IMG/VR virus record: IMGVR_UViG_3300037294_000227
Coordinates: 1-53,992 of that record
Strand: one strand, 5' to 3'
Origin: a virus
DNA: 53,992 nucleotides
This document shows positions 3,027-53,575 of this stretch, in pieces (position 1 is the first letter of the stretch; every line of letters starts with the position of its first letter). The position numbers and the translations under genes are program-made. Under the pieces are notes generated by a model, which worked only from the letters and a program-made list of their open reading frames with translations, was not told the origin of the DNA and searched no databases.

Positions 3027-4215
3027 AAACAGTTGTGCAGATTTGTGTGTTTGTATAATCGACGACACCGATCAATACAGTCCTTGGATGAAAGAGCTTG
3101 TAAAAAATACTGCGGATTATACTATTACAAATGTAACTGGAATTGGATACGATGTGTGGGTTGGGCGACACGAACACACACTATTAAAACAAGTAGTGGG
3201 CCAATATAAAAGAGCAGTTGTTATTAGTGCAGGAACCGAATTTATAAATGGTAATAAATTCTTTGATAATTTGCCCGAGGATTTTTTTATTCTTGGGCAC
3301 GTACTTGATATGGGAGATGGCTATTACGGATTACACCATCAGTGCTATGTAATAGATCTTGATTTGTATGCTATGTTAGGAAATCCCGAACCTGGACAAA
3401 CACAATTGCTGGAACAGCATATCCAAACTGTTCCAAATAGAAGTAAAGAAAACATTCACGACGATTACACACCTCTTTGGATTTCAAAAGGATCTGCACA
3501 AAAAGTATACAAACACAAGTTTCACGGATGGAGGATAATCAGTGCAGGTCTTGAGGCAGATTATAAAATTTACGCTTTCGACAGCACGCTACGAGACGGA
3601 AAGCATTTCTTGTATTGTGATGTAGATACCAGTGACTGGATTTACAAACGCTACAATCATTGTTTGCAAAATCATGTGTACAAAGACAGCACAGGCAGTG
3701 TGGATTTTCCAAGACCTTACAATTGCAACATCGATCATTTGATATATCCTGCTGCTGGCACAACATGGTTGGACAAATTAAAAAAGCACGGATACGATAG
3801 TTCTACCAAAGTAACGTTTTATGACTATAATCAATCAGCGTTAGATTACATGCAAGCTAATACTAGAGATATGGGTTTAATTTTTGAATTTGCATTGTTG
3901 GATGCAATTGCAGAGCCCGAGTGCATAGTCGAACTTGTTGACAAAAACTGCAATCCGCAAGGTGTTGTTATACACATGAGCAATATTTTTTCGTACGAAG
4001 GAACAGCAAGTTTAATGCCGTTAAAATATCGAGTGCAACAAGAAAATAAACTTATCGAAAGTGTACAATCAAAAATTCCTATGTGTGTTTTAGAATTTGA
4101 TCAGCGTGCAGCCGAAGGATTTGTACCATGGCGTGCAGAAACAGGACTTGCAAAAGACTTAGAACTCACTGATCTTTCAACTGCGGTACTTCCTCCGTGG
4201 CATACTTATGATTGA
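3010..4215 (+). CDS. Hypothetical two-domain protein, methyltransferase-like C-terminal half
   Basis: I do not recognise this 401-residue protein with certainty. The N-terminal ~140 residues alternate strands and helices (VVISAGTEF, then DFFILGHVLDMGDG), as in nucleotide-sugar or Rossmann-type domains. Residues ~250-310 (IYPAAGTTWL, then VTFYDYNQSALDYM) resemble the glycine-rich loop and acidic residue of a class I SAM methyltransferase. Start ATG 3010 has an AGGA site 7-8 nt upstream, inside the end of the hydroxylase-like gene, so translation is probably coupled. The 3' end overlaps the convergent radical-SAM gene by 50 bp. The protein could be a glycosyltransferase/methyltransferase fusion, but this is inference only. 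Confidence 0.6.
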   Translation: MFYKGKNSCADLCVCIIDDTDQYSPWMKELVKNTADYTITNVTGIGYDVWVGRHEHTLLKQVVGQYKRAVVISAGTEFINGNKFFDNLPEDFFILGHVLDMGDGYYGLHHQCYVIDLDLYAMLGNPEPGQTQLLEQHIQTVPNRSKENIHDDYTPLWISKGSAQKVYKHKFHGWRIISAGLEADYKIYAFDSTLRDGKHFLYCDVDTSDWIYKRYNHCLQNHVYKDSTGSVDFPRPYNCNIDHLIYPAAGTTWLDKLKKHGYDSSTKVTFYDYNQSALDYMQANTRDMGLIFEFALLDAIAEPECIVELVDKNCNPQGVVIHMSNIFSYEGTASLMPLKYRVQQENKLIESVQSKIPMCVLEFDQRAAEGFVPWRAETGLAKDLELTDLSTAVLPPWHTYD

Positions 4216-29758: not shown

Positions 29759-29766
29759 TATTTATA
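29759..29766 (-). promoter_or_regulatory. Late-promoter-like box TATAAATA
   Basis: On the minus strand, TATAAATA overlaps the TAA stop of the upstream tail-fibre gene and lies ~25 nt before ATG 29733. A GGAG site is in the leader. It is a good match to T4 late promoters. Confidence 0.5.
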
Positions 29767-31225: not shown

Positions 31226-31264
31226 TTTTTAAATTACCCTTGCTGTAATGTTAGTATTTACCTA

Positions 31265-35133: not shown

Positions 35134-35745
35134 TTATACCTCGTTGAATCCGCTTAGACTTTGTACTCTCACAGTGTAGTCAATCTGAATTAGTCTGTTT
35201 AAACTTTTCTGTACTGGATGAAAAATAACATGAGTTATCAATCTTCCTGCGCCTGAACTACTGTAACTACGAAGACCAAGTTCGTCGAATACATACAACT
35301 GCTCGGTATCACCAGCAGTATCAAAAGCGTCTTGGCCGTCTGGCTCTCCATAATCTAATAAACAACTTACAATAATATCGGTATAGTTGGTACCTGCAAC
35401 ATGCCTGATTTCTGTTTTATTTCTTGTAGGATCTAGATTATTAACACTAGTGTCATCTACAACCTTAGTATAAGTTTGGTTATAAAGACTTGCATTAGTA
35501 CCAGTAGTATTAGGAGTTAAGTATGTTATGATTCCAGTTGGGTCAACACTGGTGCCGCCGTTTCCGAAGCTCATTTCATAAATGTATCCCTGGCCCTGAT
35601 TTGCAAGACTTTCTGCTAACGCTAAACTCATATTTTCATAATGAATTGCATTTCTCTTGTTTATAAAAATTTCGCCTGTAGAAGGATCATGAATTTTAAT
35701 ATGACCTTCTACATGTATTCCGTTTAGTTCATTAATATCTGTCAT
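35134..35745 (-). CDS. Phage structural protein (baseplate/tail-associated, unassigned)
   Basis: I cannot name this 203-residue protein. It opens with NGIHVEGHIKIHDPSTGEIF and INKRNAIHYENMSLALAESL, has a Gly-rich turn (MSFGNGGTSVDPTG) and ends with a beta-rich part (HVIFHPVQKSLNRLIQIDYT). The pattern, size and position between a giant tail protein and collar fibre suggest a connector or baseplate subunit. AAGG lies before ATG 35745. It is separated by only 3 bp from the collar-fibre gene and is therefore co-transcribed. Confidence 0.7.
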   Translation of the reverse strand: MTDINELNGIHVEGHIKIHDPSTGEIFINKRNAIHYENMSLALAESLANQGQGYIYEMSFGNGGTSVDPTGIITYLTPNTTGTNASLYNQTYTKVVDDTSVNNLDPTRNKTEIRHVAGTNYTDIIVSCLLDYGEPDGQDAFDTAGDTEQLYVFDELGLRSYSSSGAGRLITHVIFHPVQKSLNRLIQIDYTVRVQSLSGFNEV

Positions 35746-35761
35746 GTTTACACCTTATACT

Positions 35762-35769
35762 GTATTTAT
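35762..35769 (-). promoter_or_regulatory. Late-promoter-like box ATAAATAC
   Basis: On the minus strand, AATAAATAC spans the TAA stop of the giant gene and lies ~16-24 nt before ATG 35745, with AAGG in the leader. It is a moderate match to the T4 late box. Confidence 0.35.
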
Positions 35770-38700
35770 TTTGGTAAGCGAATTGTTGCTCTGCGTAAGA
35801 ATCTGCTTATTGCATTATCTGATTGTGCTAGTGTTTTATTTGGTTCGTTCCAGACTTGACCAATTTTTCTTACAACTTCAATGCGCTGATCGGCCCAGCG
35901 TTCGGGTGCAATTATTTCACCAGTTATTGTATCTCTGGGTTCGATGTAAAGGTTGTTTCCATCAATTCTAAAGTCTGCAGAAATAGTGATATTACCTTCA
36001 TTACTGTCTTGTGCAAGAGTAGGCTGATAAACTTCAATTGCAGTATTTCTTAATCTACTGCCACCTAAGAACACATCTATTTCGTTAACACTCTCAGGCA
36101 CAAAATCCAAAGAATATTCAGTACTGGTTCCGTCTGCTGTCATTGTTTGTCTCAGTATTCTATCTTGGTATGTAATAGTTTCTTCAGGACCTTGTCCTAA
36201 CAATTCTGTGCCTGTGTCGTAGATTGTTTTGACGCCTGTGCCTAACGTTCCTCTTCTCAGCTGCAATAATGCGTTTCCTTTGATCTCGAAGTATTCTATA
36301 CGTTCGCCTTCGATGAACAACACGCCTGGGATATTTTTGGCGCGGTTGGGTTGGAAAATTCCTGCGGTGTTATCAAGTAAAATTCGAGCATCGTAGTAAT
36401 TAAGCGGAGTTGCTAATACATAGCTGTTGTCTTGGTTGAGACGTTTGTAGTGTGTTCGGTTGAGCATGTCTTTGAATATACGATATCCGTATTTCGGAGT
36501 TGACGGTGCAGTACCAAATTGTAATACATCAATTCTATCATTTTCGGACGGAACAACTTTTAATTGCACGGCATCGAGAGAATCAACAACTGTATAATCT
36601 ACATACGGTGTTAATAGAATTCCGTTTATTGCTACCCATGCATATGGAGTTCCGTAAACAGGCTTTCTTAATTGCAATATTCCTCGTGTTAGCAAGTTTC
36701 TCTTAACATATTCGTCTGTACCTTCGGCTACTGTAGTTTTTGAAAGTACGTCGTAGGTCATACGAGAAAAATTATTAATATCATGATTACTAAATGTGTA
36801 AATTTCGATGTTTTCACCACTGCTTGGCGGCACGGCAAATGTTAAACTGTCGCTTTCAACATAAAATACATCAGTAATTTTTACCTGTGTACTATCATTA
36901 TCTGCAATATCAACCACAAATTCAGGATCTTTTATAAATGCATTTCTAATATCAGGTCTGTAAGTTTCGATAACAACGCTGTTACCAATGACTGATTTTA
37001 CAATACCAATATAAACTTCATTGTCGTCAGTTGATGTCATTCTAAGTTCTGCCCCTACTGTTGCAAATCCTTCGATGTCAATTACACTGCTATCGACACT
37101 CTCAAAATCAATTTGTGTATCTACAAAATAATAATCGGCGTCGGAGATAACAAAAATATCCAATTTGCTTCCGATTGTTGCAATGTCATTTCTTAATATA
37201 CGAATTCTACTGTTTACAGGATCATATGTTACTTGTTCTTTTGTGAGTCTAACACCATCTGAATATACAATAACTTCTGCCGACGGAATATAAGAAGGGC
37301 CTGCAAACTGCCAAGATTCAATATCGTAATCGCGTTCTGTTGTTGCAGTATACGAAATACTATATCCCGGATTTAAAATTCGATTGTTGCTCTTAACCAA
37401 TATGTTGTGAGAGAACGGTCTTGCATTAAAAGGAATAGGACCGTCTACATTGAACTTGTGATAATTATTTTCACCGTTTGATTCAAATGTATTATCAATT
37501 TGCATTCTGCTGTAAGTTTGCAATAGTGAATCGTAAATAGTGTACTGAATTAAGTCATTTTCAGTAACATTGTTATTGATTATAGTAACTTGTACACGAC
37601 CCGTAGCATTTTCAGTAAGTGTATAATCTACATCAGGAAGTGCAACAACTCCATTTATTGTCATAATTGACGAAAGTTCTTCGCTGTAAACTGCTGCGGT
37701 GTCGTATGCTATAGTGCTACCATCATACACAATTGTATCAGTGTCAATGATATCAACACCATTGGTGCCTATGGTTGTAATTGTTAGATTATCCCCAATA
37801 GTACTATCGTCTAGAGTTAGTGTTTGAGCATTCCAATTTATTGAATAAAGCAACGAATCTAAAATAACACCGTCCAGTTTAACAATAACACTATCGCCTG
37901 TTTGCGGAATTTGAGGCAATGCAAATTCCGATGTGGTGCCGTCGATCTTGTAACTTGCAACCCCGATAATACCAACACCGTCGCTAGGTCTATGATACAC
38001 TCTAATATCCAATGTGTCCATTAGCTGTCCTGGTACTAGTTCCTCTGGTCCTTTGCTGGTTGTTTCTGTAACAAGGCCGTCGCCGTCTACTGTTATATCT
38101 TCGCTTGTTAATCCAGTAGCAGTTGAGTATGTTAGATTACCACTGCTTAGAGCAGTGTCATAGCTATTCTCAGTAGGAGTGAAACTGCCGTCGCTGGTAG
38201 ATTTTCTAATCACAACAATATCATTTGCACTAGTTGGAATTAATGATGTATCTATTTCAACTGTGGTTGTTATGCCGTCGCCGATTATTGTTTGCATTAC
38301 TGCATTAGGGTTAGTAACAGCACCACTACCGCTATAATTAATGTCGTCGAGGCGAACATTATTTAGATAGAAATTATACTCAACTTCAGTTTCTAACGGA
38401 CCAGCAAGCTCGAATATACTAGTACTGCCGTCAAGCACAAATATTTCGTCTTCATATGTATTGTCAAAAGTATCCCACGGAGTAGAACCAAATCCCTGTC
38501 CAAATTGTGGATCTGGATCCCATCCTTGAATATTGCCAAAATCTATACTTTCATAAATTGAACCACTGTACTCTACACCGTCCATTAACTGTGCTAAGTC
38601 TTTGCCTGGCATACCGGCAGTTGAGTTGTAAAATGAATAAATTCTATCTGCTGCGTCTAGCATCACAACATCTTTTTTATAGCTAATAGTTATCACACTG

Positions 38701-41700
38701 TTCAGCGCTGGTGCGTTAACAAACTCAACTTTTCCTAAATATCTATCATAGCTCTTAGTTGTATCAGATACATTAGATACAGCAAATGCACTACTCAATT
38801 GAATTTTATTATCTACATAAACAACAAAACTATCAGTTTTAATATTCATTGGCCATTTGAGATTGAATATTTCTTTTGCGCCAGTACCTGTAAATGTTTC
38901 AGTAACATTTAAATCAGTTAACAAATATGTACCTTTGATTCTATCAAATTTGATAATCAAGTGTGCTTTTCTTACGACGCCATTGCCAAGTATTGCAACT
39001 GCTTTAGCCGGAGTTCCACCTTCTTCTAATGTGCCGTCGATAGTAACAGTTGGTGCTTTATAAACCTTGCCACCTTTATTTGTAAGTTCTATAGTAGAAA
39101 CTTTGCCTCGGCTTAGATATGCCTTGGCCGTTGTGCCGTTATTTTCGGAGATTGTTACAATTGGTGTTTCTTTATATCCAGAGCCGCTGTCTGCAACACG
39201 TATTTCAACTACGTCATATCCGTTGTTGTCAACCCAGCTCTTGTAAGGATAAGCCATGTATTTTTCAACAATATCGGTTATTGCATTCTGGTTTTGTTTT
39301 GCAGCAATTGTTTCAATTTCTTTAGTTACAACATTGTAACTAGGCGGTACATCGAAGTCAGTTGTTAAGCTTGCAGTCGATTCAAGCTGGTTGTAAGAAC
39401 TGATGTATTCTCTAATTTTTGAACTAAATGGCTTGACTTCGTTAACATAATCTTCGTAGTTTTCCAAGTTGTCGTTTTGGAATGTAATTTTTTGTGCAAG
39501 AGTGCCAAGGTTGTGCTTTGCTCGAATAAAACTGGTTTTAAATGCCCAGTCAATATTTGATTGTTCGCTAAATGCATAACGCACACTTGCAAAAAATGTA
39601 TTATTGTATTCTACTGCTAAATCGCCTACAAATATATCATCTCTTAGTGCAGCTAAAATATTTCTTAATTCTGTTACTGGTTCTCTATCGTAAAACGCAG
39701 CATCATAAATTAATGCATCATATCCACTTGTAACTGTTGCATAATCATAAAGCCTAGTTGCTAACTGTATTGTACCGTTTTGTCGGCCAATGGTTTTGTA
39801 ATTTATTGTATAATCCTCAACTGGTTGGTTATTGATTTTTTCAAGTAACAGCCAACCGCCAGTTCCAATTGTGGTGATTTTTACAATATCACCAATTGAA
39901 TCGTTTAATGCAAAAAGTTCATAACTTTGATCTACAATATGAGTAATTGCAGTTAATTCACTATAGCCTGTTGCATACCAGTCTTTATAATTCCAATAAT
40001 TTGTTGTGTTAAATGACTGATTATCATTTCTTTCCCAAACCTGAGATGCCACGTTCCAATTGTATATTGCCCAGCGACCATTAATTTCTGAGTCACTGTT
40101 TACTAATACACTAAATTTACGTACAAACAATGTTGTGTCGCTACTGTATTTTTTACCTTGATTTTTTACAATTACATTAGTAACATGACCGAGATTGTTG
40201 ATTTCTGTTTGTAATATTGCTCCAGATCCAGTATCGGTGTTTATAACAATACTTGGCGGAACTTTATAACTTCTTCCTGGATCCTCAATAGTGACACTAA
40301 TAATTTTTCCGTTTTCAATAACCGGAGTCAGTGTTGCTTGTTTTGATTTTGCCACTCCAACAAAACGTAAATCATCAACGGTGTCTACAATCGAATCATA
40401 ATTTCCGCTGGTAATAATTGGAGGTTCGTCCTTTAACATAAGTTGGTCAATTACAAAATTGTCTACTATTTGATTTTTAATCAGTACATCGTTGACTCGT
40501 TCAACAAACTGCTTAACTGCTTCAAGTCTATTAACAAACATACTCTGTCTTGGATTATTCAATATACCATATTTTTGTTTAGGTGATAGACCAGTATCCG
40601 GAACAGGATTATTAGACAAATCATACCCAACCAAGCTATCATACCATTTTTGTTCGATTTCTGAGTTTGGTTTAGATACGTCTAGCCCCTCGGTTAATAA
40701 CTGATATTCTCTGTGTATATTGGTTTCTAGGGTTTCGTTTCTTTCAAACTCAATATGTAACACGGTATCGGTGCCACTTATTAGACTTTGAATATTATAT
40801 AGAGCAAATTTATTTGTGTCGAGTGGTGCTAGATATCTATATCCGCTAGCAGCAGGATTTCTAATTAATTGCTCTATATCATACGAACTCAAACGTCTTT
40901 TGATATTTGTAGGAACAACTCTATTGTTCCTTACCCAATAATAATAATAAGTAGTTGTCCTGCCACTGATGGTATCAATATCAGTTGAAGAGCTATAAAT
41001 TGTATCGTTGTACTTTGGAGTTCCGCTAATGCCTTTGACAAATCCTTCATTGGTGTCGGCTTGGTTGCGCCACTGCGACGGTGTTAACGTAGTTTTGACC
41101 CATTCGTAAATTTCAATACTGCCAGAATCAGCCAAGGAATTCCAATTGGCTGCTCTGTAATGTATATTGTCTTGATAAGGGTTTATCCATGTTGCACTGT
41201 CAATTGCCCACCATAGCTTTCCTACATAACTGTTTGTCCAATTCGAATTTACATCAACAGTTATACCAAATCTATCATTGTCGTTTGAACTATAAATTGC
41301 AGGATCATAAAATGTTTTAAATGAAATTTCTTGTTCTGCTGCGCCTGGTATTTTTCCTTGTCGTGGATCAACAACATCGAGATTAGCAATAATATCGTTA
41401 GTTTCTTTGCTGTACAAGAATACTCTAGAAATTTTATTTAAATTAACTTTTCCTGATTGTGCAGTTACTAGTTCCCAACTATTTTTGTTTATAGGGGCTC
41501 TCATGTCAACTAACATACCCAACGAACTGTCCTCTGAACTAATGTAGCCACTTTGTAAAATAGTGTCTGCATCGTCTGCTGGATTTATTTTAGGAAACCC
41601 TATGTACACATGATTATTATTTAATTTAAAGTTTGAAATATCGTTAAACTTAGTATTTCTATTATAAGAAAGATCTTCGCCGAATACAAAAGAATTACCT

Positions 41701-44700
41701 ATTTCTTGGAAGATTGCAATTCTTCCAGTGTCTTTAGTAACTGTAATAAACTGTGTGTTGTTGCCATCATATGTTGTCTTAAATGTATTTTCTTTACTTG
41801 TTTCGTCTAGTACATATCGTGAATAAATTGGATTACTAAATCCATCTCTTGTAATCATTACAAATTCTGGTTGAGAATATCGATCAAAAGTAGTGGCTAC
41901 TCTCTTGTCTGTATTCTTGCCGCTGATTGCTAGTTTGCTGTTGCTAAAACTAATTCCAGTACCAAATGCTTCGTTTTCTTCTGCAAAAGGACTTTGTAAT
42001 GTTTGTACCAAATTGTACGAAGAAATGTTGTTTGAGGTTGTTTTTTCATAAATGTATACAACTCCTTGGTCTATTCCTCTATTATCATTTAATGGTGCAG
42101 CAATAGCAAGTTTGTTACCGGTATTGTTAAGAGAAATAACATACCCAAATCCGTCGACACTATCGTCAGCATCAACATACTGAAGGAACGACCAACGACC
42201 CGATTGGTTTTCAAAAATTGAAACTCGTTCTGTTTTAATTGTTGTATTCTGTGCTAATAGCCCATAATCAGCAGAAGCTGCAATTGAAATAATATCGCCA
42301 AAATCGTTAACATCAAATTTTATACCAATATTAGTCGAAAGATTGTAAACAGTGGAATCGTCTTTGTCCGAAGCAAGGTACAAATCATGTGGAATATATC
42401 CTGTATATTCAACCGAATCAATGGGTGTCCATTTTAAGCTAACTGTAGGATTTTCAGTAACGCCATTGGTTGTTGCTCGATAGAGATTTCCGTTAAGAAA
42501 CACAATCTCGTTGTCGTTATATGTTACACTACTAGACCATTCGCCTTTGTAATTTCTATCTTTGGTGTTGCTCCATGCCGAGCTTGTGTCAGTTTCGAAG
42601 AAATAAATTTTACCTTGATCGATTCCAGCTTCGCCCGGGGCGCCGACAAATAATTTAGTAGTACCATACGAGGTTTGTCTTAGTTCAACTTTGTATCCAA
42701 AACGCTCTTCGGCAGTCGGAATTGGACTCATTATAACATGTTCTAAATTATAGTTATTTGTTATTGGATTTATTTTATAAAGATATACCACACCCTGATT
42801 GGTTAACCCACTAGAATTTCCAGCACTATCAGTTTCTAATAGATAGACAGGCTCCCAATCTTGTGTTAAATTTGTAATTGTACTGTTGTCGCCGTTTACA
42901 GCAATTTTAGCACGCCACAAAGTTCCGCGATCACTAACAATATCGCCTGCTGCATATGTACCAGTTGGTGTCAATTCGCCAACAAATTTTGTTAATGCGT
43001 TACTAGCATTAGGTGTACCCACTGCAATATAAACAGAATCTGCACTAATAGCTACGTCAAAACCAAATAACGAATCTTTATCAATAGTATTGTCAGGAAT
43101 GAGAACTTGAGATAAATCTTTTGTAAAACTTTCTGAGTTACGCTTGAGCACTCGAACGGATTCGTCTCTACCGAATAAAAAGTTGTCAATAGAGTTTACT
43201 ACCATAGTAGTATTAAATTTATTAACATCAAAACTTGATGCAAAGCCGTCGCCGTCGCCTGTTGGGTTTAACGTTTCTTCTTGCAGTGTAAATATTTTTT
43301 CATTTGAATAGACACCAAAGTTTCCATCGCCTTTGTTATCAATCCATACTTTATCGTCGAGATTTTCAATTATGTTTTGAATATTTAAATTTAAGTCATT
43401 TGCATTAACAAAGCGTCGTTTAACAAACTTGCTAATTCCGCCGACGCTACTGTCGTTGTACTCTTCTTCACTGATAGTAGTAGCAGTTAATATAACAACT
43501 TGATTTAAGAATACTTCTTTAACTTTGAAAAATCCATTGATTCCTGTATAATTAGAACGAATTCCGATAATATCATCAGCAACAAAATCAGTAACATTAT
43601 TTTCAAAATATACTGTAAACCCTGTGTTAGGGTCGGTTGGTTCAAAATCAATTTCTCTATCATCTGGCAACAAAGGAATAATATTAATGACAGAATTTTC
43701 AACTGCTACATTTCTATATACATTCCAGTCTCGATCTTCTCTTAATATCCAAACAAAGTCTCCTACAGAAACACTTTCAATTGGCAATAATGTTAATTGT
43801 TCTTTGACAATTGAAACAAAATTTACATCATTTTCACGTACATATCCGCTGTCAAAACCGATAACAGAGGTATCTGCCTTTTCAATAAAAATTGAATGGG
43901 TATAATCTGTTGGCTTTATTATTGCTGCTTGCGGTGTAATTTCATAAACTAAATCGGTTCGAGTATTACTAATTGAATTTGTCAATTCAAACAGTTGAGG
44001 TTCTAAATTAAATTTTGTTTCATCTAACTCGTACTCTACTTCATACGTATTTTCAACCGAACCATATTGTCCTACACGAATTCCCCATTCTTCATAAAAT
44101 TCTAAACTATCCTTGTCTGCATTACTAAGTGCATCAAACAGCTTTGTTAAACTATTTAATGTGCCTTTGTCCTGTATAAATCCTTGATAAAACTTATATT
44201 GACTTACACTATCTGTGATAATGTTTTGAAGGTAATTACGTTTTTGATATCCGATTAAATGCTGACCTAGACGCTGCTGTTCTGTATCAAAATTATCAGT
44301 ATCAAGATCGTAAAAATCTGCAAACTGATTTACTTTATAATCCCAGTTAGGGTATAATCTAGCAACGGGCTTTTCATTTAATATATTCCAAAAACTAGAA
44401 TCAAAAATATCTGTACTAGAATGTTTTTTGTTGGCTGCATAGTAAAACTCTTTGTATTTTACAACATCTCCAATTGCATAATCTTTCCATACACTCCACT
44501 CGGTTACTTTTGCATCATCGTAAAAGAACCCGGGAATGTACAATCCTCCAGTCCATTCATCAGTACGATAGCCGACTAGTTTTATACGCTCTTGTCTATA
44601 ACCAGGAGCAACATCGTAGATAGTATCATTAAAAACAGTGTTGTTGTCAATTAAGATAACATGTTCTTTTTGTACTAGAGGTAATTTAGCAAGGTATATA

Positions 44701-47700
44701 CCGTCATTGGTATTCTGAGGCTTGATGCCAAACTCGTTTTGGTTGCTTCTAAAAATATTACTAAACTCAGAATTAATTCTTGTACCAGACCCGCTAAGTA
44801 TATTCACATCGTAAAAGCCATCAAATATGTCATCAACAATATAATAATCTCTAGAAAATTTAAGTTGATTGGCTGCTGGACTAATAGTTAAAACTGTTCC
44901 AATGTCCCAATTTTGAGTTACCCAAAACATAAACTCTTTTAAACAAAGTTTCATATCTTCAAGAGCTTCGGTGTCTCTGTTGTAAAAGCTAAAATCAAAC
45001 CCTTGATTTATCAAATAGTGCTCGTACCCGAGCATAAAATTTGTAACTTCTTGTACTGAAGCAAGCACCGTACCGTATGGCAGCGAACTCACAGTTGGCG
45101 CAAAGTCTTTTCTAAGCAAAGTAGTTATGCCGCCGACCACAGGCAAACTAGGAAGCACTGCAAACTTAGTGACATCAAATTCAACTCCGCTGATGTGTGT
45201 AATAATAGTTCTAAAATACTTTCCATTATTGAATACAACATTACCAGCAACATATTGAGTATTACCTGTCCAGTTTACATAAGATTCGCTGACGCCGCCA
45301 ACTGTAATTGCGCTATCTCTTTGTCTAGCAATTGGTGCATTGTAATTAAACACTGGATCTTCTTTATCATATCCTGTTACAATGTAACCAGTTTGACTTT
45401 TTTCGATCATAATGCCGCTGAATACCGGAGTTTCCAAAGGACTGCTTACATTAAAGAAGATTTGATAATTTTCATCAGGAACAAACACGCTGGTTTTGTT
45501 CAACGGACTTCTACTATCAAGTACCAATTTTAATTTATTTTTATCAGCAAATCCTCCTAGCTTAACTGCTAGTTGGTTAACACTATTTTTTATCTGAGTT
45601 TGATAAGTATCGTATCTAGTTGTTACTTTGTTAACCATATAATCAGCAATATAATTAACCAATCCACTAGTCAAAATCAAAGCATTGTCAGTACTAATAG
45701 TTGGAAACACCAAGTCTTCGAGACGCAATCTTTTTGCAGTAGGAGTATAAATTAAATTTCCAACTATGTCTCGCTCAATTCTCGAACAATCAAACCCTAA
45801 GCCAAAAATATGAGTCGGCTGCAATATAGTCCAAGCAGTAATCAAACTAAATGGATATTCGCTACTGCGCCTCCACGCTGTTTCTACAGGTGATTCGTCG
45901 CCAAACTTAAAGTTATTTTTAGTTGGTACCAAAGAATAATCTTGGGCTAAACCACAATCTACCGGACTTAACAGTCTGCCATATTCGTCTACTGGAATAT
46001 TAGACAACAGGCCAACACGCTTGAACTTGTTATTTCTTATAAGCGGCTTCCCGGGTTCCTTGATTATTCCTTGTGCAAGATCTGCCCAAAGTATTGTATT
46101 GTCCTTAGTATAAGGAGCAGGACCGTAGGTGTCAGTCCACCATGTTGGCTTGATAGTGAATCCTAGCATTTCCCACGGATGTGTGTGAGGACGATCTGTA
46201 TCAAAATATTTTTTATAGATAGCTCTCCATGTTCCCGGTAACGGATTTCCTGCTTTGTCTCCCATTTCGGAATAATTATATGTAAACCCGTTGAGGTCGT
46301 TCCACGAAATATTGCTGCTGTAATCAGGCGAGCCGGCAATTTCTAACCACTGTGCAAAATCAGCTAATAATATATTGTCAATACTATGTTTAGTAAATCC
46401 AGTATTTCTATCAATTCCTGATACAAAATCAAATATGTCAATTTTGTCTGCAGAGTACTGACACTTAATATTGTTGTAGATTCTCATTTCTAATTCAAGT
46501 ATAAGTTCGTCTCTATAATCGCCGTATGCTTTTACCAAGCTACCGTCATGTCCTTGAATCATAGATGTAGTTTCAATGTAAGTGTTGTCTAGAATTAACA
46601 TAGGTTCAAACAGTGGATACAACCCTAACTTTGTAGGAGTAGGAGGAATATAAGAACCATTGGTACTTTCATATTCGTATACTTCAACAATATCGCCGTC
46701 TTGCAGATCTTGTAAAACATATACAAAATTGTCAGTGAACACATAGTCTTTTTTGTGTAGTAACTGTATACTGTTCAAATAAACTGTCACTGATTTGTTT
46801 GATAATGTAGTTAAATTAAACGATTTACTCAATGCAAAATAAGCAGGACCGTTGTATTCAACTGTGTGGATTGTTTTTGTTTCTGCACCCACACCTACCA
46901 TATCACTAAAATAAAATGGACGATACGAAGTTTTAGATTCTGCAAGAGTGCTTAAAATTAAATCAACGTGATCTTTAGCACTGCCGTGAAATCCGGTCTT
47001 GTTTGCTTCGTAAACAAATTGTCTTTTAAATTTTGCATACTCTTTTCTAGCAAATTTCAACGACTTTACTATGTTTGCATTTTTATCTGTTAAATTATAC
47101 AACGATAGATTGAATGGCCCGCTGTGTTGTACAAAACGTTTTCCGTATGCAGTGAGATTGCTAACGTCTCTTAAATTGCTGGTACCAGGAAACACTCCTA
47201 CAAATTCAGGATGGTCGTCTGTTATACTGTCAATATGATCGTTTACTTCACCAAGAGTAACTTCTGTGATGTTGTTGTTAAGAGGATTCTTTTCAAGGTT
47301 AATTGGAATTTCATAAAACCCGTTTGCATTTTTATTTGCACTGCTAAATGTCTTGATCAACAATATATCATCGACATTTAACGAAGTATTAAAATCTACA
47401 TATGCAATACCATTAATTCTCGAAATCGAGTAATCAATTGTTTCATATTTTCTTGCACTGTTTACCCATACTTTAATAACTAGATCAGTTAAGTTACCAC
47501 TTTTATTATACACATCAATTGGAAAATTATTCAGTTGTGTATTAAGGGTACGATTTCTAATCACACCTTGAGTACTTTTAGCAACTGCTTTTTTCCAACC
47601 ATTTTCATAAGAAAAGTTTTCGCCAGTATTGTCAAACTTTTTTACAAAGGCAGTATCGGTATTAATATCAATTTCTATGTCCATGTCGGATTGATAATTA

Positions 47701-49643
47701 AAGCTATCAGTTAAAAGATTAAAATCAAATACAATATCACCTACGTTAGCAATATTACGGTAACTTAATGCAAATCCTAATTCCGTATCTACTGTGCCAT
47801 TTCCAACTTTATAGTTGAATATTTTATTTCCTTTGAAACTGCTTGCTGGATAATAAATTTCGTCAGTGTAACTGAATCCGTTTTTGTCAAACAAGTCAAA
47901 CAAGGGAAATTGATTTACTGTTGTTTTGTCCTGTGAAGCCTTCCAAGAATTTCCATTGTAATAAAACATATTACCCGAATAGTTGTTTCCTTTTAAAACA
48001 AGAACAGCTTCGTCTACTGTAGGAATAGTATCTACTGCTTCGACTAATGCAATTTGTCTACGAGCATTGTGTGTAATAAAATTAACTACGTATATTTTAC
48101 CATTAACTAATATATCAGGATCGGCTGTGAATAACACTCTCATCCCGTCTACTAAGTCAATTCCGTCTACATTATATCCTAAGCTGCCTTCGATTGTACT
48201 AAACACGTCAGTTGTAAATGTATCAACTAAGTCAATATTTTGTTTTGCTTTTGCGCCGTGCTGAAATAGTTTCAACCCTGCATCAAACTCAATAATAGGA
48301 CGCTTTGCTCTTGCATCCTGATCAAGCGTTACTTCAAGACCATTTGCTATTGCACTTGCTTCTACTACATCTTTGTGAAACCAACGATTATAACGTGTCC
48401 ACGGATTTCGATCAGCACTGCTACGATTGATTACAATATAATCTTTTATTCCAGGAAAACTAGTGGCATCCTCAAACGGATAACGATCAAACCCGTAGTT
48501 GTCAAACGGAATATTAAATTCACTTGTAAATATTGCAGGAACTTCTAAGTCTTTTTCTGCAACCAATTTAATTGCACTTCCTACACCTTCTACGTACCAG
48601 TAACCAGTTTTGTATTTCTCAGGAGATACTACCCCTTGAAAATATATTTTCATTCCGTTGCTAATCTGTGCACCAGTTGACGACTTATAGGTTTTTTTAC
48701 CTAAAAAATCTTTCTCAACATCAATCGAGGATGCTTCTGTGATTTCGTATGTAGCAATTGCGCCGCTGGTATCAATTGAATTTTCACTGAGATAATAAAG
48801 AGTGCTAGGAACGTCGTCTGGCACTACAAATTCTATTACGCCTTTTTCGATATAATTAGCAGTTGTTTCAACTAATTTACCTTCGGCATTGTATTCGTAT
48901 TTTACAACACCTTTTTTATACAATGTGCTAAAATTTGCAGGATTGTATTCGAGATACGGATCCTGGTCGTTGAATACTCTGTTAAGTGTTAACGCAAAAG
49001 GGTGACCGGGGGTGTCGATTTCAAAACGATAAGTTTGTCCTTTGTAGAGTTTTACTGTTGGATTTCTTGTAAATCCGTTTGGTGTAAACACATAAGCATA
49101 GTTGTCTGCATCAAATTCAAGACCAACAGTGTATGTACTAACAATAGTTTTTGCTTGTCCAAAAATAGCAACTGGATCAGGTCCCATTGGTAACCAATAA
49201 TATTCGCGAAAGTTTGCAAACTTGTCCCAGTTTATATGTGGGTTCCATGCATAAAATTCTTGACTGTTTAATACACTGTGATTGCTAGTGGATCCTTTAA
49301 AGCTGGTTAATTGCCCTAAGTAATCGTTGTAATCTTTGTAAAATTCAACATTGTTTAAATTATCTTTGTAAACCATTACAGGCTCAAACTGATAGTTTTC
49401 TCTCGATGCAGAAACATCTGATAAAAAGCTGTCTGCTGCTGTTGTAGCTCTAGCGTATCTTCGGCCAGCAAAACTGTTTATTTTTTCAACAACACCAGGC
49501 TTAATCATCTGATCGATAGTTGAATTTATAAATTTTTTATTGGTGTCTGTTCTAAAATACTTTGGAAGGAAATTTGAAGCACTGATATCTCCAGTGCCGT
49601 TAACAGGTAGGGCAGATTCATTTTGATCTTTATCATATGCCAT
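35766..49643 (-). CDS. Giant multi-domain virion structural protein (4625 residues)
   Basis: One reading frame of 13,878 bp follows the gp6-like gene by TAATG; GGAGG precedes the ATG. Residues ~190-300 resemble a cupredoxin-like domain (LYKGQTYRFEI, FVVPDDVPSTLYYLSENS) in which the copper-ligand segment is not conserved. Four short segments (~1457, ~1715, ~2222, ~2367) look like carbohydrate-binding modules (WSVWKDYAIGDVVKYKEFYY). Residues ~2190-2580 contain FG-GAP/beta-propeller-like repeats (FGFDVAIS, VGAPGEAGIDQG). GSGY-type repeats lie near 3130 and 3490. A repeated beta module (VxLdGxxLxxxDYxV) occurs along the C-terminal 1000 residues. The role is probably baseplate or tail periphery; the domain limits are approximate. 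Confidence 0.85.
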   Translation of the reverse strand: MAYDKDQNESALPVNGTGDISASNFLPKYFRTDTNKKFINSTIDQMIKPGVVEKINSFAGRRYARATTAADSFLSDVSASRENYQFEPVMVYKDNLNNVEFYKDYNDYLGQLTSFKGSTSNHSVLNSQEFYAWNPHINWDKFANFREYYWLPMGPDPVAIFGQAKTIVSTYTVGLEFDADNYAYVFTPNGFTRNPTVKLYKGQTYRFEIDTPGHPFALTLNRVFNDQDPYLEYNPANFSTLYKKGVVKYEYNAEGKLVETTANYIEKGVIEFVVPDDVPSTLYYLSENSIDTSGAIATYEITEASSIDVEKDFLGKKTYKSSTGAQISNGMKIYFQGVVSPEKYKTGYWYVEGVGSAIKLVAEKDLEVPAIFTSEFNIPFDNYGFDRYPFEDATSFPGIKDYIVINRSSADRNPWTRYNRWFHKDVVEASAIANGLEVTLDQDARAKRPIIEFDAGLKLFQHGAKAKQNIDLVDTFTTDVFSTIEGSLGYNVDGIDLVDGMRVLFTADPDILVNGKIYVVNFITHNARRQIALVEAVDTIPTVDEAVLVLKGNNYSGNMFYYNGNSWKASQDKTTVNQFPLFDLFDKNGFSYTDEIYYPASSFKGNKIFNYKVGNGTVDTELGFALSYRNIANVGDIVFDFNLLTDSFNYQSDMDIEIDINTDTAFVKKFDNTGENFSYENGWKKAVAKSTQGVIRNRTLNTQLNNFPIDVYNKSGNLTDLVIKVWVNSARKYETIDYSISRINGIAYVDFNTSLNVDDILLIKTFSSANKNANGFYEIPINLEKNPLNNNITEVTLGEVNDHIDSITDDHPEFVGVFPGTSNLRDVSNLTAYGKRFVQHSGPFNLSLYNLTDKNANIVKSLKFARKEYAKFKRQFVYEANKTGFHGSAKDHVDLILSTLAESKTSYRPFYFSDMVGVGAETKTIHTVEYNGPAYFALSKSFNLTTLSNKSVTVYLNSIQLLHKKDYVFTDNFVYVLQDLQDGDIVEVYEYESTNGSYIPPTPTKLGLYPLFEPMLILDNTYIETTSMIQGHDGSLVKAYGDYRDELILELEMRIYNNIKCQYSADKIDIFDFVSGIDRNTGFTKHSIDNILLADFAQWLEIAGSPDYSSNISWNDLNGFTYNYSEMGDKAGNPLPGTWRAIYKKYFDTDRPHTHPWEMLGFTIKPTWWTDTYGPAPYTKDNTILWADLAQGIIKEPGKPLIRNNKFKRVGLLSNIPVDEYGRLLSPVDCGLAQDYSLVPTKNNFKFGDESPVETAWRRSSEYPFSLITAWTILQPTHIFGLGFDCSRIERDIVGNLIYTPTAKRLRLEDLVFPTISTDNALILTSGLVNYIADYMVNKVTTRYDTYQTQIKNSVNQLAVKLGGFADKNKLKLVLDSRSPLNKTSVFVPDENYQIFFNVSSPLETPVFSGIMIEKSQTGYIVTGYDKEDPVFNYNAPIARQRDSAITVGGVSESYVNWTGNTQYVAGNVVFNNGKYFRTIITHISGVEFDVTKFAVLPSLPVVGGITTLLRKDFAPTVSSLPYGTVLASVQEVTNFMLGYEHYLINQGFDFSFYNRDTEALEDMKLCLKEFMFWVTQNWDIGTVLTISPAANQLKFSRDYYIVDDIFDGFYDVNILSGSGTRINSEFSNIFRSNQNEFGIKPQNTNDGIYLAKLPLVQKEHVILIDNNTVFNDTIYDVAPGYRQERIKLVGYRTDEWTGGLYIPGFFYDDAKVTEWSVWKDYAIGDVVKYKEFYYAANKKHSSTDIFDSSFWNILNEKPVARLYPNWDYKVNQFADFYDLDTDNFDTEQQRLGQHLIGYQKRNYLQNIITDSVSQYKFYQGFIQDKGTLNSLTKLFDALSNADKDSLEFYEEWGIRVGQYGSVENTYEVEYELDETKFNLEPQLFELTNSISNTRTDLVYEITPQAAIIKPTDYTHSIFIEKADTSVIGFDSGYVRENDVNFVSIVKEQLTLLPIESVSVGDFVWILREDRDWNVYRNVAVENSVINIIPLLPDDREIDFEPTDPNTGFTVYFENNVTDFVADDIIGIRSNYTGINGFFKVKEVFLNQVVILTATTISEEEYNDSSVGGISKFVKRRFVNANDLNLNIQNIIENLDDKVWIDNKGDGNFGVYSNEKIFTLQEETLNPTGDGDGFASSFDVNKFNTTMVVNSIDNFLFGRDESVRVLKRNSESFTKDLSQVLIPDNTIDKDSLFGFDVAISADSVYIAVGTPNASNALTKFVGELTPTGTYAAGDIVSDRGTLWRAKIAVNGDNSTITNLTQDWEPVYLLETDSAGNSSGLTNQGVVYLYKINPITNNYNLEHVIMSPIPTAEERFGYKVELRQTSYGTTKLFVGAPGEAGIDQGKIYFFETDTSSAWSNTKDRNYKGEWSSSVTYNDNEIVFLNGNLYRATTNGVTENPTVSLKWTPIDSVEYTGYIPHDLYLASDKDDSTVYNLSTNIGIKFDVNDFGDIISIAASADYGLLAQNTTIKTERVSIFENQSGRWSFLQYVDADDSVDGFGYVISLNNTGNKLAIAAPLNDNRGIDQGVVYIYEKTTSNNISSYNLVQTLQSPFAEENEAFGTGISFSNSKLAISGKNTDKRVATTFDRYSQPEFVMITRDGFSNPIYSRYVLDETSKENTFKTTYDGNNTQFITVTKDTGRIAIFQEIGNSFVFGEDLSYNRNTKFNDISNFKLNNNHVYIGFPKINPADDADTILQSGYISSEDSSLGMLVDMRAPINKNSWELVTAQSGKVNLNKISRVFLYSKETNDIIANLDVVDPRQGKIPGAAEQEISFKTFYDPAIYSSNDNDRFGITVDVNSNWTNSYVGKLWWAIDSATWINPYQDNIHYRAANWNSLADSGSIEIYEWVKTTLTPSQWRNQADTNEGFVKGISGTPKYNDTIYSSSTDIDTISGRTTTYYYYWVRNNRVVPTNIKRRLSSYDIEQLIRNPAASGYRYLAPLDTNKFALYNIQSLISGTDTVLHIEFERNETLETNIHREYQLLTEGLDVSKPNSEIEQKWYDSLVGYDLSNNPVPDTGLSPKQKYGILNNPRQSMFVNRLEAVKQFVERVNDVLIKNQIVDNFVIDQLMLKDEPPIITSGNYDSIVDTVDDLRFVGVAKSKQATLTPVIENGKIISVTIEDPGRSYKVPPSIVINTDTGSGAILQTEINNLGHVTNVIVKNQGKKYSSDTTLFVRKFSVLVNSDSEINGRWAIYNWNVASQVWERNDNQSFNTTNYWNYKDWYATGYSELTAITHIVDQSYELFALNDSIGDIVKITTIGTGGWLLLEKINNQPVEDYTINYKTIGRQNGTIQLATRLYDYATVTSGYDALIYDAAFYDREPVTELRNILAALRDDIFVGDLAVEYNNTFFASVRYAFSEQSNIDWAFKTSFIRAKHNLGTLAQKITFQNDNLENYEDYVNEVKPFSSKIREYISSYNQLESTASLTTDFDVPPSYNVVTKEIETIAAKQNQNAITDIVEKYMAYPYKSWVDNNGYDVVEIRVADSGSGYKETPIVTISENNGTTAKAYLSRGKVSTIELTNKGGKVYKAPTVTIDGTLEEGGTPAKAVAILGNGVVRKAHLIIKFDRIKGTYLLTDLNVTETFTGTGAKEIFNLKWPMNIKTDSFVVYVDNKIQLSSAFAVSNVSDTTKSYDRYLGKVEFVNAPALNSVITISYKKDVVMLDAADRIYSFYNSTAGMPGKDLAQLMDGVEYSGSIYESIDFGNIQGWDPDPQFGQGFGSTPWDTFDNTYEDEIFVLDGSTSIFELAGPLETEVEYNFYLNNVRLDDINYSGSGAVTNPNAVMQTIIGDGITTTVEIDTSLIPTSANDIVVIRKSTSDGSFTPTENSYDTALSSGNLTYSTATGLTSEDITVDGDGLVTETTSKGPEELVPGQLMDTLDIRVYHRPSDGVGIIGVASYKIDGTTSEFALPQIPQTGDSVIVKLDGVILDSLLYSINWNAQTLTLDDSTIGDNLTITTIGTNGVDIIDTDTIVYDGSTIAYDTAAVYSEELSSIMTINGVVALPDVDYTLTENATGRVQVTIINNNVTENDLIQYTIYDSLLQTYSRMQIDNTFESNGENNYHKFNVDGPIPFNARPFSHNILVKSNNRILNPGYSISYTATTERDYDIESWQFAGPSYIPSAEVIVYSDGVRLTKEQVTYDPVNSRIRILRNDIATIGSKLDIFVISDADYYFVDTQIDFESVDSSVIDIEGFATVGAELRMTSTDDNEVYIGIVKSVIGNSVVIETYRPDIRNAFIKDPEFVVDIADNDSTQVKITDVFYVESDSLTFAVPPSSGENIEIYTFSNHDINNFSRMTYDVLSKTTVAEGTDEYVKRNLLTRGILQLRKPVYGTPYAWVAINGILLTPYVDYTVVDSLDAVQLKVVPSENDRIDVLQFGTAPSTPKYGYRIFKDMLNRTHYKRLNQDNSYVLATPLNYYDARILLDNTAGIFQPNRAKNIPGVLFIEGERIEYFEIKGNALLQLRRGTLGTGVKTIYDTGTELLGQGPEETITYQDRILRQTMTADGTSTEYSLDFVPESVNEIDVFLGGSRLRNTAIEVYQPTLAQDSNEGNITISADFRIDGNNLYIEPRDTITGEIIAPERWADQRIEVVRKIGQVWNEPNKTLAQSDNAISRFLRRATIRLPK

Positions 49644-52600
49644 TAGTAAATAATTCCTCCGGTTGTAGTTGAACTACTAGTTGTTGAGCTTTGAATTCCT
49701 GCGTTGTTACTAAATGCTGTAGTAACAATTGCGCCTGCGGCTCTTAATCTTTCTTGTGTGTTTGCCGTTATAAGTTCGATATCATCTACTGTTGCACTGC
49801 TAATAAAAATTTCGTCATTTTCACTTTTTACTTCAAATAGACTACCAAAATTTTGACTTGCATCTCTTGGCACTATGACAATACTAACAACATCAGGTGC
49901 TAATTGTTTCATAATATACGAAGACAATTCGCTAAAATAAAACGTTTCTCCAAAGTCCCAATTATCTAATGCAAAATATTCATTGATTGCTGTTATCACT
50001 TTTGATTTAATCTCATTGTCACTGACTACTCTGTTTTCGTTTTTAACTATTTTAAACACTGCTTGTAAATCTAAATCGCTATTACTTCCGAATAATGTTT
50101 TATATTTTACTGGATGATAAATTACTTCATCACTAATACTTTTTACTTTATTAATTTCTGCACCATATGCTTTATATAGCTGATCGCTGCTTGGCGGTAA
50201 TGGTCTTGTTGCCACTATGTTGTTAATAAACTGTCTAAAATTAGTGTCGTACGACTTTGTTAAAATGTATGTGTCAATAATATTTGTACTGCTAGGATCA
50301 ATACGAGAATTTTCATCAGCAGCATGTACATATTGGAATTTGATTTTGTCTCTTCCAATATAAGCATTATAATTGTATACTTCGGTTAATGATCTATTAG
50401 AACTATCAAGTTTTTTAAATACATCATCTGCTACAAAATAAAATATAGGATTATTTTCTGCTAACAGATTTGGTGATTCGCTAACATTAATAGTTTGTAT
50501 ATTCTCAACCTCGTGGTTGACGTAAACATAAAATTCGTTATTGTTTATTACAGATTTTTTAGTAAAAATGTAATTTGTATTATCTACTATTTCATTAAAC
50601 AAATCTGGGTTATCTATAATACCGTCGTCGTCATTATCGTAGAATGTTACTTCAACTTTTTTACTGTCAACGTAGCCGCCTGCATCTCTGTACTCTTTAG
50701 AAATTTCCCAATCAAAGTCAACTGTAAATGGACTTGTTCCTTGTCCGGCATTAATATTGTTGTTGATATTTAAAACACGAAGTTTATCTTTTACAATTTC
50801 ACCTGTTTTGCTATCATATATTTTTTTACTACCATCAAAATAAAATCTAACTTCTGCATCACTTTCAAACACATAACGTAATGTTCTGTGTGTAATATTG
50901 TAGGATACGCCGTCAGTTTCAAATAACAATAACCAACTGCTATCAATCTGCTGTCCTGACGTGTCTCCTGCTAATCCTAAACTAAAATTAGAATTTACAT
51001 CAAGATCTTCTTGCAGAATAATATTCCACTGTCTTAGTTCTCTATCATAACGTAACCCAAAACTTCTATAAGCAAATACATTGTCAATGATTTGAGTTTG
51101 TACATCTGATATTAAATCTCTAACAAATCTAGGCTTAATAAATTGTAAAATAGAATTAGAAGGAATAATATCATTGAATGTTATTGGACCAGACCCGTCT
51201 GTGTTTAGTTCTTGGCCTGTGCCAACTGTACTAATTACCTTGGTCCACAGGTAGCTTGTTTCTCCCTTAACGCCAGATGACAACACTAGACGATCGTTTA
51301 AAAATGCATATCCTGCAGGAGCTATAAACTTAACCAAGGCACCAGTTTCTAAGAATCGCAAAGGACCTTCTGTAAAGCTACCTACTGTATAATAGATATT
51401 ATTTTCATCATATACTCTACCAGTACTCCTGTTAGTGTCCGAGGTTGATTGTTCCCAACGTAAATTAAGTTCAGAATAATCTTGATTTGGATATTCGTTT
51501 AGATAAAAGTTCTTTGTACCGATATTTTCTAACAACGGAATGATTGTATTGAAAATAGTTTTTGAAATATCAGTTCTTGTAATAAACTTAAAATTTGTTA
51601 GTTTATTCAAGTATTCCTTATATATTACGCCGTCGGTTCCAAATATATTTGTTTTACTGTATTTTCCAGTAGCATCTAAAATATCGTAATATCTACTAAT
51701 TCCGCTAGCTGTTCTATTGACACTTTTTGTTTTGATAATTTCTTGGCTAATACCTAGTGGACCTAAATTATAATCTTCGGCTGTAATAAGTCTATTTTGA
51801 GTATAATATGTACTAGGAGCATTTGTTTTAATACTATCTGTTGATTCGGTTGCACTGGCATTGTCAACTGGAGTTTTTAAATCCATACTTATTGTAAGTG
51901 TTTCTGTTTTGCCGACTTTACTTAGATAAGGCACACGCACACTTATTCCTTGCATACTTGCAGGAGTTATAGTATAATCAGCATTAGCACTTGTTCGGTA
52001 ATAAACTCTAAACGACCCCTTTGGCAATTCGCCAAATATTCCATCACTAAAAATTAAACTAATTCTGTCTTGTGTTCTTGTTAATACACTGTAAATATTT
52101 CTAATGTTTTTGCTGATACTGTTATAAACAATATTGTTACCTTCAACACTGTCAACCTTTGTCCACAATTCCTCTTCAATATTATCTGAATTGAGTTTGT
52201 ATAACCAAACATCACTGTTGTTTATGTCTGATATATTGATTTCAATTTTTTGATTTGGCACTGGAGAATCGACAATAAAGTCACCTTTTTGAATATTGCC
52301 TTGTCTAAAGTGTGCAAAGAATCCAGTGTTAGAACTGCCAGCGCCCTGGCCGTTGTCTCTGTAAATGAATCCAAATTGACTACCTGGCAACGGTGCTTCT
52401 TCAACAATATCGCCGGCGCTGATACCAGTGCTGACAATTTCAAAATTTAATGTTTTACTGTTTATTGGTTTTGTGAATGTAAAAATACTACTTTTATCAG
52501 TTAAGTTGTTTAGTCTGTATTGTTCAGTTGCAATACCATCTACATTTTCTAATTTAATAGGGCGTCCTATCCGATTGTTTATAGGAAGACTTGCATTTAA

Positions 52601-53077
52601 AATTTTAGTAAATTGCTCAAACCAATCCGAATTAGTAGTGTCATTCCATGTGATATTTCTGTTGGCTAAATTAACGCCATTGCTGTCTATAATTTGTTCT
52701 GTTGTTTTTACACCAGTAAACTTTAACAATCCGTTTGCAGCTTGATTTCTTGTAACATTATAAGATACCAACCGAGCAAGACGAAGAACGCTTTCTCTGC
52801 GCTCTGCTAATTCAAGAAAATTTTCTCTTGCATTTAAATCAATACGAAAACTAATATTTTGTCCAAGAAATGCAATCATATCAATTAGCGCAAGATATTC
52901 GCTTGACTCAATATAGTCATTGAAATCTTCTGGGTAATTGGTACGCAGATACTCGATCATTGTACGACGAAGATTGTCAAAATCGTAGCTTTTGAAATCT
53001 GCATACTTAAAACTCTGATAGATTGTTTTCCAATCTTCAGCTAATAACAGTCTATTTTGTCTATCAGTAGATGACAT
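49643..53077 (-). CDS. Baseplate wedge subunit, T4 gp6-like
   Basis: This 1144-residue protein has the N-terminus of gp6-like wedge proteins (RTMIEYLRTNYPEDFNDYI, then LIDMIAFLGQNISFRIDLN). It ends with ETFYFSELSSYIMKQLAPDV, typical of this family, in which it bridges neighbouring wedges of the contractile-tail baseplate. It is much longer than T4 gp6 (660 residues), with extra beta-rich material in the middle. Start ATG 53077 is used because GAGG lies 8 nt upstream; the in-frame GTG at 53083 is too close to it. TAATG links it to the giant gene. Confidence 0.87.
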   Translation of the reverse strand: MSSTDRQNRLLLAEDWKTIYQSFKYADFKSYDFDNLRRTMIEYLRTNYPEDFNDYIESSEYLALIDMIAFLGQNISFRIDLNARENFLELAERRESVLRLARLVSYNVTRNQAANGLLKFTGVKTTEQIIDSNGVNLANRNITWNDTTNSDWFEQFTKILNASLPINNRIGRPIKLENVDGIATEQYRLNNLTDKSSIFTFTKPINSKTLNFEIVSTGISAGDIVEEAPLPGSQFGFIYRDNGQGAGSSNTGFFAHFRQGNIQKGDFIVDSPVPNQKIEINISDINNSDVWLYKLNSDNIEEELWTKVDSVEGNNIVYNSISKNIRNIYSVLTRTQDRISLIFSDGIFGELPKGSFRVYYRTSANADYTITPASMQGISVRVPYLSKVGKTETLTISMDLKTPVDNASATESTDSIKTNAPSTYYTQNRLITAEDYNLGPLGISQEIIKTKSVNRTASGISRYYDILDATGKYSKTNIFGTDGVIYKEYLNKLTNFKFITRTDISKTIFNTIIPLLENIGTKNFYLNEYPNQDYSELNLRWEQSTSDTNRSTGRVYDENNIYYTVGSFTEGPLRFLETGALVKFIAPAGYAFLNDRLVLSSGVKGETSYLWTKVISTVGTGQELNTDGSGPITFNDIIPSNSILQFIKPRFVRDLISDVQTQIIDNVFAYRSFGLRYDRELRQWNIILQEDLDVNSNFSLGLAGDTSGQQIDSSWLLLFETDGVSYNITHRTLRYVFESDAEVRFYFDGSKKIYDSKTGEIVKDKLRVLNINNNINAGQGTSPFTVDFDWEISKEYRDAGGYVDSKKVEVTFYDNDDDGIIDNPDLFNEIVDNTNYIFTKKSVINNNEFYVYVNHEVENIQTINVSESPNLLAENNPIFYFVADDVFKKLDSSNRSLTEVYNYNAYIGRDKIKFQYVHAADENSRIDPSSTNIIDTYILTKSYDTNFRQFINNIVATRPLPPSSDQLYKAYGAEINKVKSISDEVIYHPVKYKTLFGSNSDLDLQAVFKIVKNENRVVSDNEIKSKVITAINEYFALDNWDFGETFYFSELSSYIMKQLAPDVVSIVIVPRDASQNFGSLFEVKSENDEIFISSATVDDIELITANTQERLRAAGAIVTTAFSNNAGIQSSTTSSSTTTGGIIY

Positions 53078-53100
53078 GCGCACTTCCTCAGTTTATCTAA

Positions 53101-53128: not shown

Positions 53129-53575
53129 TTAAATCAAGCCGTTTTTTTGGTCAAAATTAAACTGTAGCTTTTCGCTGATGCTGTATTCTAGATAAGTTAA
53201 ATCGCATTCAATTTGTATGCCACTTTCGTAACTACTAACTGAAACGTTATTAACTCTTACACGCGGTTCGTGTACAGTAATAATCTGTGTTACATTTTGA
53301 ACAATAACATCTTTGAGATTATCAGTCAACGGATCGTACAATACATCCCATATGATTGTTCCAAATCCTGGGTTTTCTAATTTTTCGCCTAGTCGTATAT
53401 GAAAATGATTTACAATGTCTTGTTTGATCAGTGCAAGATCATACAGTTTAAATTCTTTGCTGTCGGGGTTTACTGTGCTGATGCCACGATAAGTTCCTTG
53501 AGTTACAGGAGGTGCTTCTCTTTTGAGAGATTGTATTTTTAAGTTCTTGTATAGATTTTTTTCTAAGCTACTCAT
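53129..53575 (-). CDS. Baseplate wedge protein, T4 gp25-like
   Basis: This 148-residue protein matches the gp25/lysozyme-related wedge family. KLYDLALIKQDIVNHFHI, then RLGEKLENPGFGTIIWD and LYDPLTDNLK are typical, with the ENPxFG turn and a conserved Asp. gp25 sits at the core of the wedge next to gp6 and the sheath. It is slightly longer than T4 gp25 (132 residues). It precedes the gp6-like gene by ~50 bp, the order known in T4-like phages. A TAAATA box lies only 4 nt before ATG 53575. Confidence 0.88.
   Translation of the reverse strand: MSSLEKNLYKNLKIQSLKREAPPVTQGTYRGISTVNPDSKEFKLYDLALIKQDIVNHFHIRLGEKLENPGFGTIIWDVLYDPLTDNLKDVIVQNVTQIITVHEPRVRVNNVSVSSYESGIQIECDLTYLEYSISEKLQFNFDQKNGLI

Follow-up and report, generated by a model that had tools for sequence, protein, structure and literature searches.

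The window analysed here comprises 53,992 bases and is the entire virus record IMGVR_UViG_3300037294_000227, which is probably a fragment. The first-pass annotation described a 4,625-residue open reading frame at 35766-49643, directly following gp25-like and gp6-like genes and taking about a quarter of the window; this is correct, with the gene on the minus strand and occupying 25.7% of the sequence. The frame starts with ATG and has no internal stop, while the plus-strand reading of the same interval is full of stops. Dozens of contigs, independent of one another, carry the protein conserved from end to end, which excludes a chance ORF. The genes of the locus, in the order in which they are read, are:

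53129..53575, minus strand: gp25-like wedge subunit / sheath initiator, 148 aa (baseplate wedge families phrog_261, E 7.8e-15, and phrog_43, E 1.7e-11)
49643..53083, minus strand: gp6-like baseplate wedge subunit, 1,146 aa (phrog_10646, baseplate wedge, E 2.3e-297)
35766..49643, minus strand: giant virion/baseplate protein, 4,625 aa, intact ORF (phrog_10938, virion structural protein)
35134..35745, minus strand: beta-rich partner protein, 203 aa (phrog_11259; 60 named records)

The stop codon of the gp6-like gene and the start codon of the giant gene share one base (TAATG). Fibre-like genes are still present downstream of the giant gene. Three of them (681, 606 and 487 aa) lie in tandem at 29762-35130 and have a similar N-terminal domain (phrog_14394/15511) with differing C-terminal parts; the first carries a tail collar domain. 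Beside the fibre genes, a 23-kb region (1189-24232) contains seven or more radical-SAM genes, of which three have SPASM domains above the Pfam cut-off and one has a B12-binding domain, together with a DUF6071 gene, and is possibly a peptide- or surface-modifying island.

By sequence, the giant protein is a member of an already known family of virion proteins in jumbo phages of the PA5oct/RaK2/Atu_ph07 type. It matches the profile of phrog_10938 (‘virion structural protein’) over long stretches (E = 0, 1,106 bits), and homologues were detected by tblastn in 60 named phage records, all jumbo phages or their fragments, including PA5oct and its relatives, Atu_ph07, RaK2, 121Q, PBECO4, Munch, CBB and SCTP-2. 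An alignment-based scan of IMG/VR returned at least 600 stretches, at least 584 of which were confirmed. Full-length relatives range from 3,326 to 5,368 aa.

Gene order around the giant gene is strongly preserved. A gp6-like gene lies immediately upstream in all 76 loci with enough upstream sequence, a gp25-like gene is found within 6 kb upstream in 71 of the 71 loci with room for it, and the one-base overlap between the gp6-like and giant genes recurs in most loci tested. The order gp25-gp6-giant is kept in Atu_ph07 (giant of 4,449 aa), PA5oct (3,857 aa), CBB (3,340 aa) and RaK2 (3,326 aa). The 203-aa gene lies 3' of the giant gene in 52 of 57 loci; its 60 named records belong to the same phage groups as the giant and include phages in which it has moved to the other strand. 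Its product carries the motif FGNGG...VFDELGL...SHVIFHP..KS and has virion-borne relatives in CBB (CBB_230; PMC5259590) and PA5oct (gp357, according to the PA5oct record).

That the giant is a virion protein, as the first-pass annotation held, agrees with mass spectrometry on three homologues: CBB_236 was identified in virions from 21 unique peptides (7.7% coverage; PMC5259590), phAPEC6 gp245 (381.9 kDa) from 17 peptides (7.6% coverage; PMC7247149), and the record of PA5oct gp355 carries an ESI-MS/MS note. phAPEC6 gp245 is numbered beside gp244, a ‘baseplate wedge’ (PMC7247149). The T4-like baseplate genes listed for CBB are gp6, gp25 and gp53, and gp7 and gp8 are absent from the text of that paper (PMC5259590).

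Three further sequences bear on the family. In L065 (8670-11267) the giant gene looks interrupted close to its beginning, with the match beginning at 8724 and the open frame starting at 11267, through either an assembly error or a real split. In Stenotrophomonas phage CM1 (L087:22959-32372) the gp6-like gene is followed directly by an unannotated open frame of 3,138 aa, which is probably a member of the giant family. A 750-aa unnamed viral protein (BFVD A0A2Z5HGI1) matches the model of the conserved core (TM 0.73 by its own length, 18% identity) and may be a split or minimal form.

Long blocks of near-constant length alternate with one variable region along the giant protein, whose features are as follows (minus strand throughout):

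47304..49643, minus: residues 1-780, conserved N-terminal block, holding a YRFEI..GHPF..TLYY beta module (about 165-308)
44364..47321, minus: residues 775-1760, conserved core, AlphaFold mostly pLDDT 70-95
45147..45281, minus: residues 1455-1499, chitin-binding-type (CBM5/12) module 1, with Pfam and structural match
44376..44513, minus: residues 1711-1756, CBM5/12-type module 2, with match to a phage Milano baseplate chain
44046..44342, minus: residues 1768-1866, helical segment with KGT (K1826-G1827-T1828) and EEW, proposed gp7/gpI-type wedge core
41304..43751, minus: residues 1965-2780, length-variable cassette of FG-GAP propeller repeats and CBM-like modules
42048..42158, minus: residues 2496-2532, FG-GAP_2 repeat
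37944..41366, minus: residues 2760-3900, second conserved block, length nearly constant
40125..40337, minus: residues 3103-3173, GSGY-type beta repeat 1, common to cyanophage gp7
39039..39254, minus: residues 3464-3535, GSGY-type beta repeat 2, common to cyanophage gp7
36189..36428, minus: residues 4406-4485, RGxxGT module, also present in cyanophage gp7

Residues 1-790, 775-1965 and 2760-3900 have fairly constant lengths across relatives, in contrast to the cassette at 1965-2780, which ranges from 578 to 1,517 aa; identity between the window protein and its relative in L003 falls from 66% in the core to 49% in the cassette. The module types named in the first-pass annotation were recovered in part. 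FG-GAP_2 repeats occur in the cassette of 37 of 38 family members (E 6.7e-8 in this segment of the window protein), and the repeated beta modules amount to about ten Ig-like modules and two GSGY repeats along the chain. A carbohydrate-binding module was likewise borne out: four CBM-like stretches are present, CBM_5_12 scores above the Pfam cut-off on the whole protein (E 8.2e-11), and residues 1455-1499 resemble the chitin-binding modules of chitin-active enzymes (VIA; Z up to 6.9, rmsd 1.3 over 45 residues). This small module recurs in baseplate, tail-fibre and injection-system structures (Milano, A-1(L), 7-7-1 and the Anabaena CIS). Residues 921-990 resemble domains of podophage tail fibres and tailspikes (Z about 5). 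Based on these module resemblances, the giant may bind glycans. The cupredoxin-like domain proposed in that annotation, which is the beta module at about 165-308, was not confirmed: the profile of residues 165-308 returned nothing from the PDB or Pfam, and no His or Cys ligands are conserved, with H214 and its neighbours varying across relatives and only N, L, G, Y and P residues invariant.

AlphaFold models covered residues 775-1965 and 1757-1990. The first is confident, and as a whole it was matched by Foldseek to no solved structure; T4 gp7 was not among the matches, an absence that is not evidence. The helices predicted for the KGT segment have a pLDDT of only about 40-60, and the Foldseek search with the model of 1757-1990, which gave no match, is meaningless at that confidence. 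The low confidence could be explained by folding that takes place only in contact with gp6, but it proves nothing either way.

Residues 1760-1960 carry the motif FYQGFIQDKGTLNSLTKLFDAL...EEW. Within it, F, Y, G and K are invariant in 85 sequences, with the G and T of KGT kept in at least 90%; the pattern F-Y-x-G...K-G is invariant over 68 sequences that include RaK2, PA5oct and Atu_ph07, usually as KGT. When residues 1760-1960 were aligned by unguided hhalign to full-length targets, the best match fell on the KG helix of both T4 gp7 (715-755) and cyanophage gp7 (164-214). The cyanophage score was reached by none of 120 column shuffles and by no segment of the giant lacking the motif, while the T4 score was reached by 24 of 120 shuffles and is not above background. 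The similarity to the gp7 KG helix is suggestive, and not significant against T4. Direct BLAST and hhalign comparisons of the giant with T4 baseplate proteins gave nothing significant, and nothing in T4 gp7 was found to correspond to the well-conserved block 775-1760. Tail_P2_I (PF09684, the P2 gpI family) has no match in the window or in the complete relatives, and P-SSM2 gp7 itself has no PF09684 match. Position and motif together make membership of the gp7 group probable, short of proof at the level of fold.

A separate gp7 or gp8 was sought in the complete genomes of PA5oct, CBB, RaK2 and Atu_ph07. The T4 gp7 profile (phrog_964) recovered none, and the gp8 profiles of T4 and cyanophages (phrog_438, phrog_977) gave only short repeat matches, mostly inside the giant; one weak 28-column match in Atu_ph07 was the remainder of the T4 gp7, T4 gp8 and cyanophage gp8 searches. 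P-SSM2 served as the positive control, its gp8 being found at E 1e-166. The first-pass annotation had reasoned that separate gp7 and gp8 homologues elsewhere would speak against its reading; within the sensitivity of the profiles the four relatives have neither, which is in its favour. The 203-aa downstream protein was considered as a hidden gp7 and set aside, being beta-rich by eye and without the KGT motif.

We propose that the giant serves as the gp7-equivalent wedge subunit in the contractile-tail baseplate of a jumbo phage of the PA5oct/RaK2/Atu_ph07 type, with a probability of roughly 0.75. The gene is intact, its family is conserved and the order gp25-gp6-giant is fixed; homologues in virions, modules in common with cyanophage gp7 and the failure to find any other gp7 point the same way. 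In T4, XM1 and the T6SS, the wedge core is formed by a gp7 orthologue and two copies of gp6 (PMC10457771, PMC6300606). By analogy with these (gp6)2-gp7, (gp16)2-gp17 and (TssF)2-TssG assemblies, each of the six wedges would form when the helical segment at about 1768-1866 engages two molecules of the neighbouring gp6-like protein. The other 4,500 residues, made up of Ig-like and other beta modules and the FG-GAP propeller cassette, would then extend into the outer baseplate, where this beta chain may carry or contact fibres. The CBM-like and propeller modules would perhaps touch the cell surface, with the attachment signal passed to the wedge, and the variability of the FG-GAP cassette marks it as the likeliest host-facing part. 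There is precedent for seating host-contacting parts on a gp7-type protein, since the small gp7 orthologue of XM1 (gp17, 242 aa) carries the tail spikes (PMC10457771).

A broader version, which overlaps with and extends the gp7-equivalent reading, has the giant as a fusion replacing both gp7 and gp8, along with outer wedge proteins such as gp10. We consider this doubtful. The complete relatives do lack a gp8-family protein apart from the short repeat matches, but the simple contractile tail of XM1 is described without gp8 (PMC10457771), so that an absent gp8 does not show that the giant does its job and need not mean fusion. The GSGY matches reflect a module that cyanophage gp8 has in common with other proteins, and the models, which covered residues 775-1990, demonstrate no gp8-like fold. 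The earlier suggestion that the giant replaces several wedge or fibre proteins is not borne out, given this and the fibre-like genes that follow it downstream. In its fullest form, one chain would unite the gp7 wedge core, the whole outer baseplate with gp8-type functions, and a swappable FG-GAP propeller cassette for receptor binding; this too we regard as improbable. If it were true, host recognition would be covalently joined to the wedge that triggers contraction and would not reside on detachable fibres.

Somewhat less probable again is a peripheral role for the giant, as a baseplate or whisker/fibre protein that only happens to lie beside gp6, with the true gp7 a small, unrecognised gpI-like protein encoded elsewhere. 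Since gp7 orthologues can be as small as that of XM1, one could be too divergent for profiles, and the gp7 role of the giant stands without fold-level proof. Against this, the T4 gp7 and P2 gpI profiles yield no other candidate in the complete relatives, the obvious small candidate is the 203-aa protein discussed above, and the adjacency of gp6 and the giant is unbroken in all loci tested. That the giant is mainly a multivalent glycan-binding adhesin, with its baseplate role secondary, is the least likely of these alternatives. The four chitin-binding-type modules and variable propeller cassette that suggest it are offset by the recurrence of the same small module in phage and injection-system parts, where it may be structural, and by length-stable, well-conserved blocks with no lectin signature in Pfam.

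The family was already in databases as a virion structural protein, and substitutes for gp7 have been published (PMC7029224); what is new is a specific gp7 assignment for the giant. Under the gp7-equivalent reading, a jumbo-phage ‘virion structural’ protein that ranks among the largest and most widespread acquires a testable function. The reading singles out a segment of roughly 100 residues expected to touch gp6, as well as a cassette of variable length that may determine host range.

The closest known counterparts are the members of phrog_10938 itself (RaK2 gp465/ORF070w, CBB_236, PA5oct gp355, Atu_ph07 gp180 and phAPEC6 gp245). These occupy the same place after gp6, are 26-30% identical to the window protein in the core block and are found in virions of three of the phages (CBB, phAPEC6 and PA5oct). 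At 3,326-4,449 aa they are somewhat shorter than the window protein, and public records label them ‘virion structural’ without assigning any further function.

T4 has gp7 (1,032 aa), gp8 and gp9 after gp6, in that order. T4 gp7 (phrog_964) thus likewise comes after gp6, and its KG helix lies at about 738-760, behind a helical domain at 643-689. It differs from the window protein in being 4.5 times shorter, in having no significant sequence match to it and in being followed by gp8; Pfam domains V and VI of T4 gp7 were not found in the window protein. The 121-kb IMG/VR contig 2974739009 bears a pair of T4-type gp7 loci (L166, L167), each about 80% identical to T4 gp7, through either a duplication or a concatenated assembly.

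The first-pass annotation placed the giant in a position that other wedge genes normally hold in T4-like phages. The gp7 slot is right, but the contrast was overstated: the T4-like cyanophages have giants exactly there, in the order gp25-gp6, giant, gp8, and a giant there is therefore nothing out of the ordinary. That of P-SSM2 (PSSM2_111, 5,195 aa) is annotated as gp7, ‘baseplate wedge initiator’, and that of S-CAM1 (SXBG_00012, 3,032 aa) occupies the same slot and has a YHYH domain. The T4 gp7 profile matches the P-SSM2 protein only at the KG helix, and T4 gp7 matches the PHROG of giant cyanophage wedge proteins at residues 730-758, over the same helix; these matches indicate that giant gp7 proteins exist. 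A published precedent for a gp7 stand-in is VrlC, which appears to substitute for gp7 in pelagimyophages and cyanomyophages (PMC7029224). The window protein and cyanophage giant gp7 differ in the position of the KG helix, which in cyanophages is close to the N terminus (about residue 200) and whose proposed counterpart here is at about 1826, in lacking overall sequence similarity, and in the gp8 gene that comes next in cyanophages. They are alike in the slot after gp25-gp6, the proposed KG helix, the GSGY repeats (E 4e-10 by profile comparison) and the RGxxGT module (E 2e-6); both modules are promiscuous, and GSGY also occurs in cyanophage gp8. The gp6-like protein also has its N-terminal region in common with cyanophage gp6. 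This comparison suggests that an oversized gp7 is common to cyanophages and jumbo phages of the PA5oct/RaK2/Atu_ph07 type.
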